From an uncultured beta proteobacterium (GTDB taxonomy: Bacteria; Pseudomonadota; Gammaproteobacteria; Burkholderiales; Rhodocyclaceae): DNA of 12,767 nt. Under the pieces are notes generated by a model, which worked only from the letters and a program-made list of their open reading frames with translations, did not search any database and had not been told where the DNA came from. The stretch covers positions 1 through 12,767 of the forward strand of contig CAIZHL010000258.1 in the NCBI GenBank assembly GCA_903932755.1, read 5' to 3'. Position numbers and translations under genes: made by a program. Shown here in pieces: positions 10,523 through 12,767 of this stretch (position 1 is its first letter; the number at the start of each line of letters is the position of its first letter).

Positions 10523-11653
10523 ATGGCAATCAGCGAACTGGAAATAGCCTTGATCGGGGCCGGGGTGACCGGGGTGGCCATGGTCTGGGTCTACAACATC
10601 TGGCAGGACCGCAAACACCGCAAGGCCGCCGACAGGATCTTCAAGGGCGGCGAGGGCGATGCGCTGCTCGCCGGCGAACCCGGGCAGAAGCTGGAACCTG
10701 GCGTCGCCGCCATGGCGGATGAAAGCGACGCGGCTGCGGACCTCGCCGCGGCAAGCGACGAAACCGGCGCGATGGCGGCGGCCGCTTCCGCACCGGAAGC
10801 GGAGCCGGAACCGGCTTCAGACCTGCCGGCCGAATGCGCCGACCGGATCGCCGACTGCGTGCTGCGCTTCACCACCGCGGAACCGGTGCCGGCGCCGGCG
10901 ATCCAGGCCATGCAGGCGGTCTGGTCCGGCGAATTGTCCAAACCGCTGCACTGGCTGGCCAAGGGCGATGGCGACGAGCCGTGGCGTCGCATCGGCGCCG
11001 ACGACTCCGGCCGCTACCGCAACTGGGCGGTGGCACTGCAGCTGGTCGATCGCCGCGGACCCATCAGCGACGGCGAACTCGGCCGCTTCTTCGACGGTGT
11101 CCACTCGGTCGCGCAGCAGGCGGGGGCGACGCTGGAGCTGCCGTCGCGCGGCGAACTGGTGATGCGCGCCGGCGCCCTTGACCAGTTCTGTGCCGGAGTG
11201 GACATCCAGTTCGTGCTGCATGTGGTCGAAGCCTCGGGCGGGGTGTTCGCCGGCACCAAGCTGCGCGGTGTGGCCGAAGCCGCCGGACTGGCGCTCGAGG
11301 GCGACGGCGTGTTCCGCGCCCGCGATGAAGATGGCGGCGAATTGTTCACGGTGGCCAACCTTGGCGCCGAGCGTCTCGAAGCCGAATCGATCAAGTCGCT
11401 GGCACCCCATGGCCTGACCCTTAGCCTCGACGTGCCGCGCGTGACGGACGGCAAGCTGGCCTTCGACCGCATGCTGGCCACCGCGCGCCAGCTGGCCGGC
11501 ACCCTCGGCGGCGTCCTGGTGGACGCGCAACGCGCGCCGCTGGCCGATGCCATGGTCGATGCGATTCGCGCCAAGACCAGCGAGCTGCAGGCGCGCATGA
11601 ACGAAGCCGGCATCGTTCCCGGCAGTACGCGGGCGCTGCGACTGTTTTCCTGA
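10523..11653 (+). CDS. zipA: ZipA-like cell division protein with FtsZ-binding domain
   Basis: This 376-residue inner-membrane protein is placed in the ZipA family, which tethers FtsZ to the membrane at the division site. One helix near the N-terminus (about residues 5-26, [20 protein letters not shown]) is followed by a basic cluster QDRKHRK, giving the N-out/C-in arrangement expected for ZipA. A short Ala/Glu/Asp-rich linker (about 45-105) replaces the longer Pro/Gln-rich linker of enterobacterial ZipA. The C-terminal globular part (about 225-365), from [22 protein letters not shown] onward in pieces, matches the ZipA FtsZ-binding fold; the segment at 105-220 is less clear to me. Placement between smc and ligA is a recurring proteobacterial order and supports the call. 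Its TGA overlaps the ligA ATG by one base. Betaproteobacterial members are divergent, so FtsZ binding is inferred from family, not from individual contact residues. Confidence 0.85.
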
Positions 11654-12767
11654 TGGGCCTCGGGCAGGCGGCTGCGCGGGCAGAAGTCCTGCGCCGCGAG
11701 ATCGAGCGGCACAACCATGCCTATTACGTGCTCGACGCGCCGACCGTTCCCGACGCCGAATACGACAGGCTGTTCCGCGAGCTGCAGGCGCTGGAGGCGG
11801 CGCACCCCGGACTGCGCAGCGCCGACTCGCCGACGCAGCGGGTCGGCGGCACGCCTCTGGCCGGGTTCGCTCCGGTGCGGCACGTCGTGCCCATGCTGTC
11901 GATCCGCACCGAAACAGACACTGGGATTGGTGGTGCGGTGGCGTTCGATGCGCGGGTGCGGAAGAAGTTGAAATTTGCCGAGAATGATCCACCTATCGAA
12001 TACATTGCCGAGCTTAAATTCGACGGACTGGCTATCAACCTTCGCTATGAAAATAGCGTGTTGATACAGGCCGCTACACGTGGCGACGGCGAGACCGGTG
12101 AGGACGTAACACAGAATGTGCGCACCGTGCGAGGGGTTCCGCACCGTCTCAACAGCGATGCGCCGAAGGTGCTTGAAGTGCGTGGCGAGGTGTATATGCG
12201 GCGCGATGATCTCCTGCGCTACAACGAAAAAGCCGTGCAGCGCGGGGAGAAAGCCCTGATTAATCCACGCAATGCGGCGGCCGGCAGCATCCGCCAGCTT
12301 GACCCTAGCTTAGCGGCACAACGACCTTTGTTTTTCTTTGCTTATGGTCTTGGTGAGGTGCAAGGCTGGACTCTACCGAACACCCACAAAGGCGTGCTCG
12401 ATGCGCTTTCTATTTTTGGGTTTCCCGTTTGTGATCATCGAGTAGTAGTACATAGCGTGGAGGGACTGTTTACTTTTCACGAGAAGATAATGTCACTACG
12501 TGACGGACTGCCGTTCGATATTGATGGTGTGGTGTACAAACTCAATTCGCTGACTTTACAAAAGCGCCTCGACGATTTGAAAGACGCAAATTCAGCGTCA
12601 CGTGAACCGGATTGGGCCGTGGCACATAAGTACGTCCCTCCAGAGGAATTGACAACGATTGAAGGCATTGATGTTCAAGTTGGGCGTACTGGCGCGATTA
12701 CTCCAGTGGCACGATTGAAGCCTGTATTCGTTGGTGGGGTAAACGTTGCCAACGTAACTTTGCATAA
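11653..12767 (+). CDS. ligA: NAD-dependent DNA ligase LigA (3' end beyond window)
   Basis: LigA seals nicks during replication and repair using NAD+. The ATG at 11653 overlaps the zipA stop as TGATG, implying translational coupling. The 371 visible codons cover domain Ia ([22 protein letters not shown]), which binds the nicotinamide mononucleotide part, and the adenylation domain. The AMP-accepting lysine is K122 in ELKFDG; further motifs are [34 protein letters not shown] (291-296) and WAVAHKY. The fragment ends just inside the OB fold ([12 protein letters not shown]), and the zinc finger, HhH and BRCT domains lie outside. Base composition falls sharply after about 11910, with codons such as TTA, ATA, CTA and GTA that are scarce upstream. 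Near residues 306-314, DDLKDANSA stands where relatives usually have a shorter GFVS-like stretch. Despite these oddities no motif or frame is broken. Confidence 0.97.
11905..11930. other. Composition breakpoint inside ligA
   Basis: Hand counts give about 77% GC for 11761-11880, about 50% for 11911-12060, 48% for 12301-12360 and 43% for 12421-12480. The change falls within the codons of the conserved [10 protein letters not shown] block, as expected for recombination or mis-joining at a conserved sequence. The exact base cannot be fixed by eye. Confidence 0.7.

Follow-up and report, generated by a model that had tools for sequence, protein, structure and literature searches.

Two ancestries in the ligA fragment at the end of a Rhodocyclaceae contig, probably joined during assembly

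The adenylation domain of the NAD+-dependent DNA ligase LigA carries a KxDG motif, and the C-terminal half of the protein is formed by OB, HhH and BRCT domains. Two forms of the enzyme bear on the locus described here, the short form of the host genus (~680 residues) and a long form of ~800 residues, and the ligA fragment studied resembles each of them in a different part. It is like the host-genus short form in residues 1–86 and in the gene order smc-zipA-ligA, and differs from it at residues 87–371, where identity is 64–68% instead of at least 81% and where six extra residues are inserted. This latter segment is like the long form in an insertion before the REP motif (found in 10 long forms), in the signature RRDDL...NPRNAAAGS and in tree position, and differs from it in reaching at most 72% identity among the matches listed. 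At residue 85 the fragment has R, which it shares with the host type, where the long forms P0001, P0002 and P0004 have H. A further comparison is with interspecies chimeric metagenome contigs. Passages of PMC2829047 treat interspecies chimeras as a hazard of assembly, and passages of PMC10523443 state that metagenome-assembled genomes frequently harbour chimeric sequences. The present contig shares with such chimeras two ancestries that meet at a conserved block, a short stretch of foreign sequence that ends the contig and a fragmentary bin; it differs from them in that the source organism was not found among the matches listed.

The window, that is the whole stretch of DNA analysed, is the complete contig C258 (12,767 bp) of genome G000, an assembly of 2.8 Mb in 603 contigs with a completeness of 70% and a contamination of 3.31%. 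The contig carries smc, zipA and then codons 1–371 of ligA, the same order as at congener loci, all on the forward strand. The native upstream context consists of smc (6908..10489, with a start codon deduced from its reading frame) and zipA (10517..11653, 56–75% amino acid identity to same-genus loci). The ligA gene is divided here into a 5′ part, residues 1–86 (11653..11910, hereafter the head), and a 3′ segment, residues 87–371 (11911..12767, the contig end; hereafter the tail). Its KxDG motif is present as ELKFDG at residues 120–125, the reading frame is uninterrupted, and the fragment stops at residue 371 with the contig. A scan of the window against Rfam gave nothing that reached the gathering threshold. 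Within smc, positions 8640–8715 hold a GC-rich dispersed repeat with the palindromic core CCCCCTTCCCGGGGAAGGGGG, which is read in frame and has 16 matches besides itself across the readable contigs of its own genome and many in congeners. The smc alignment is interrupted near 8640–8715 in several congeners, and the repeat may be a recent in-frame insertion.

The observation that ligA is composed of two parts is confirmed by composition. A maximum-likelihood search for a GC3 change point over the 371 ligA codons gives codon 87, base 11911, as the best position, near which the preliminary description of this DNA had placed an abrupt junction, with GC3 of 0.88 upstream and 0.52 downstream. The log-likelihood gain is 20.9, beyond all 1000 permutations, whose maximum is 10.4. 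GC3 is 0.80–0.85 in the remaining genes of the window, and overall GC is 0.66 in the contig body versus 0.52 over the final 857 bases. This drop of 0.139 is matched at none of the 108 ends of 54 contigs of the same genome, and a drop of at least 0.10 over 857 bp is seen at two of them, in a comparison that used 54 of 100 contigs, the 46 left out being all those shorter than 3 kb. The largest GC3 drop among 109 related loci with both ligA parts is 0.13, versus 0.36 in the window. A second step within the tail, where GC3 is 0.63 up to ~12298 and 0.43 beyond, was rejected; its gain of 5.6 lies within chance (the ten highest of 1000 permutations gave 6.8–8.4).

Judged by sequence identity, the change at the junction is one of ancestry, beyond mere composition. 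Upstream of it, positions 6914–11910 align over their full length to the two best congeners, G011 (82% DNA identity) and G007 (81%). In local alignments to 25 fetched congener loci the head has 70–87% identity (at most 87% at the amino acid level to same-genus loci) and the tail 64–68%. Residues 1–86 are native to the host genus. A control with full alignments covered 13 of the 25 congener loci, the other 12 having been dropped only for a minus-strand match in the fetched stretch, and gave amino acid identities to the window of 0.71–0.87 for the head and 0.64–0.68 for the tail. Among the congeners themselves the tail is the better conserved part, with a mean identity over 78 pairs of 0.86, versus 0.79 for the head, and a lowest tail pair of 0.81. 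At the DNA level, 28 of the 30 other genomes of the genus match the tail at 64–71%, the 71% matches spanning only ~105 bases; none of the 30 exceeds 71%, and two give no match at all. Mean DNA identity to 11 congener loci is 0.83 at 11878–11922 and 0.58 at 11923–11967, which places the identity-based switch near 11922. Taken with the composition step at 11911, this means that the switch lies inside a junction block of 12 residues (11887..11922), marked by the composition change point, by 21-mer sharing and by the loss of genus identity, or at the end of that block.

These identities bear on the view that there is no junction and that the fragment is the genus's own ligA, with a 3′ part that evolves fast or drifts in composition. 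One congener, L104, would fit such a view, being almost equally identical to both parts (0.71 for the head and 0.68 for the tail); it alone shows no step. The view is opposed by the congeners being at least 0.81 identical to one another across the tail, where the window reaches only 0.64–0.68, and by a GC3 step above 0.13 occurring in none of the 109 relatives.

It is opposed also by the insertion. Before the REP motif the tail has ten residues (10 codons, 12571..12600) instead of four, that is six more than the usual LigA. The script parsed the REP site in 317 of 339 LigAs and found the short site in 307 and seven extra residues in 10, counts that do not represent natural frequencies because 239 of the 339 had been chosen by likeness to the tail. 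Nine of the ten carriers have 802–807 residues and an insertion similar to that of the tail; the insertion of the remaining carrier, the 463-residue fragment P0129, agrees with theirs in length but is unlike in its letters. In P0008 (804 residues, labelled Azonexus sp.), which lies outside the parsed set, the insertion is visible in the alignment. Like the long forms, the tail further shows MRRDDL..YN and NPRNAAAGS, where the aligned short forms mostly have SR.DFERYN and NPRNGAAGS. As regards the long forms in general, P0001–P0005, P0007–P0010 and P0018 are LigAs of ~800 residues with an adenylation-domain insertion relative to the 680-residue form, and those of them that were aligned (P0001, P0002, P0004 and P0008) have in addition a long extra stretch before the C-terminal part. 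The adenylation-domain insertion is missing from other long LigAs, of ~794 residues.

Trees of the tail give a less even picture. Its placement was unresolved in an initial quick tree (52 rows). At the time of a test of wider groupings the quick tree joined the tail to 16 long LigAs, with a support of only 23, and a wide group around the genus that included the tail had the higher likelihood (AU p 0.80), a result in favour of there being no junction. In a careful tree of 46 rows, built without L066, L068, L016, P0114, P0015 and P0036 (long branches, gaps or odd places), the tail joins 15 long-form LigAs (support 97/89), and a constraint that keeps it with the genus plus four near rows has an AU p of 0.031; its branch is long (0.57), which leaves the placement unsure. 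All 15 long forms together are the sister group of the tail, and since seven of them lie outside the insertion group, insertion and tree nest imperfectly. In the tail tree P0021, labelled Sulfuritalea sp., adjoins the congener L103 (98/94), which makes it probable that the host genus is Sulfuritalea or a near relative. For the head, a quick tree of 82 columns and low resolution groups it with three congeners at weak support, and holding it with the insertion-group LigAs gives an AU p of 0.07, neither placement being formally rejected. The separate phylogenies that had been proposed for the two parts therefore place them differently, with the position of the head weakly supported, and identity shows the two ancestries more plainly than the trees do. 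The different tree places argue against simple drift and fit a chimera and a recombination equally. Since the tail groups with the long form in the careful tree and has a rare insertion in common with some long LigAs, it is very improbable that the gene of the genus itself has merely drifted.

The source of the tail was sought in several collections. A protein search with an X-padded query gave a best identity of 72% among the best 120 of 8000 scored candidates, a search among short fragments a top identity of 68% among the 120 listed, and a search of 395 genomes of the family, G000 included, a best value besides its own of 71% among the matches listed. The closest kin of the tail among the matches listed are LigAs of betaproteobacteria, and with a GC3 of 0.52 the tail agrees with the earlier suggestion of a lower-GC betaproteobacterial relative. 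The source is apparently a lineage not yet sampled and probably belongs to the same wider group. A phage origin was considered and rejected, as all 828 phage records that match the tail protein do so at less than 60% identity, and so was a viral one, as 44 viral loci match at only 28–43%; the exact 29-base pattern of the junction occurs in none of the viral contigs. The readable contigs of its own genome hold neither a second copy of LigA residues 87–371 nor a C-terminal LigA half of either type, an absence that is weak evidence, since 46 of 100 contigs (<3 kb) lay outside this search and the assembly is 70% complete.

The ligA fragment has two ancestries, and its switch, which lies at a conserved block, is closely followed by the contig end. 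The junction block has 20–26 identical bases in common with congeners and with L029 (Ramlibacter), L014 (Iodobacter) and L012 (Ralstonia), and exact matches of up to 26 bases with other genera agree with the conserved block that the preliminary description had seen at the switch; this letter-for-letter sharing is measured against other genera rather than against the tail source. Over 1930 LigA gene pairs less than 80% identical, from 63 named loci, the junction is the strongest listed peak of exact 21-mer sharing upstream of 12029 and the sixth overall, the five stronger ones lying farther down the gene. A conserved shared block of this kind is a possible branch point in an assembly graph and equally the easiest place for a crossover. 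From the switch it is 857 bp to the contig end, which lies at a further conserved LigA motif (VTLH) and which the tail reaches without a return to host sequence. In the congener G004 the ligA contig likewise ends 29 bases beyond residue 371, and another contig begins at residue 335, which implies that contigs break at this place of ligA in at least one other assembly.

An interspecies assembly chimera best explains the two-source ligA, with a probability of about 0.8. The assembly appears to have been built from short metagenome reads, the state of the genome making a metagenomic origin likely. A short-read assembler would have followed the host contig through smc and zipA into ligA and on into the conserved 12-residue block, across which two members of the community would be identical or nearly so; the path would have left the block into a relative of lower GC, itself unsampled, whose LigA would be of the long-form kind, and halted 857 bases later at VTLH. 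The join would then have been made in the assembler and not in the cell. This reading is favoured because the contig ends so soon after the switch that the foreign piece forms the contig end, because the stop is at a conserved motif near which the ligA contig of G004 also breaks, and because the tail occurs in no other genome searched, even though other genomes need not share an event that is very recent. Some findings count against it. The frame is kept, as had been stated earlier, and the protein looks functional by its sequence, although a join at a homologous block would give the same; the source of the tail is absent from the matches listed; five 21-mer peaks in the gene outrank that of the junction; and the lack of an equal GC drop at the 108 other contig ends implies that such joins are uncommon in the readable part of the assembly.

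The preliminary description favoured homologous replacement of most of the gene by DNA from a lower-GC betaproteobacterium, and it cautioned that a chimeric join must be excluded first. As weighed here, a real replacement would have exchanged the 3′ part of the host ligA for that of a donor lineage with a long-form-kind LigA, by crossover in the conserved block. The caution was right, and the chimera is now the better explanation; replacement has lost its leading place, given a contig that ends 857 bp on, a fragmentary assembly and a recombinant shared by none of the 30 other genomes of the genus, and is considered unlikely. A sharp switch of ancestry in a conserved block with an intact frame would be expected of it, and the readable contigs without other residues 87–371 or a C-terminal LigA half agree with it, weak as that evidence is. 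Against it, the chance that a real junction lies so near this end would be ~7% (857/12767, for a uniform position), and the donor part, at most 72% identical to the proteins listed and 64–68% to congeners, would require a crossover between very divergent genes; the lack of sharing also counts against it, sharing not being required of a very recent event. It is quite unlikely that, in a cell lineage, no fewer than 285 of the 371 codons seen of an essential replication and repair gene were exchanged in frame for those of a partner about two thirds identical, from an unsampled donor lineage; such an exchange would yield a hybrid enzyme, its head of the short form and its body of the long-form kind. 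If true, it would show that most of the adenylation domain of a ligase can be swapped for that of a ~66% identical partner. A literature search for a mosaic ligA brought up a review of an archaeon. With the chimera as the preferred reading, an assembled contig can mimic the horizontal replacement of an essential gene, since frame, motifs and gene order survive a join at a conserved block, and claims of recombination in core genes of assembled genomes need read support.

Two minor observations concern mixed sequence in these assemblies. One congener assembly, G025, has two ligA matches (G025:C53 and G025:C45), with 71% and 70% identity over residues 6–371, which probably represent two strains in an assembly with 10% contamination. 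In G000 itself, L258 (G000:C403), L215 (G000:C20) and L279 (G000:C504) have a GC of 0.54–0.55, versus 0.63 over the 54 readable contigs together, and the first 900 bases of L258 have a GC of 0.41–0.47; these three are possible contaminants or mobile DNA.
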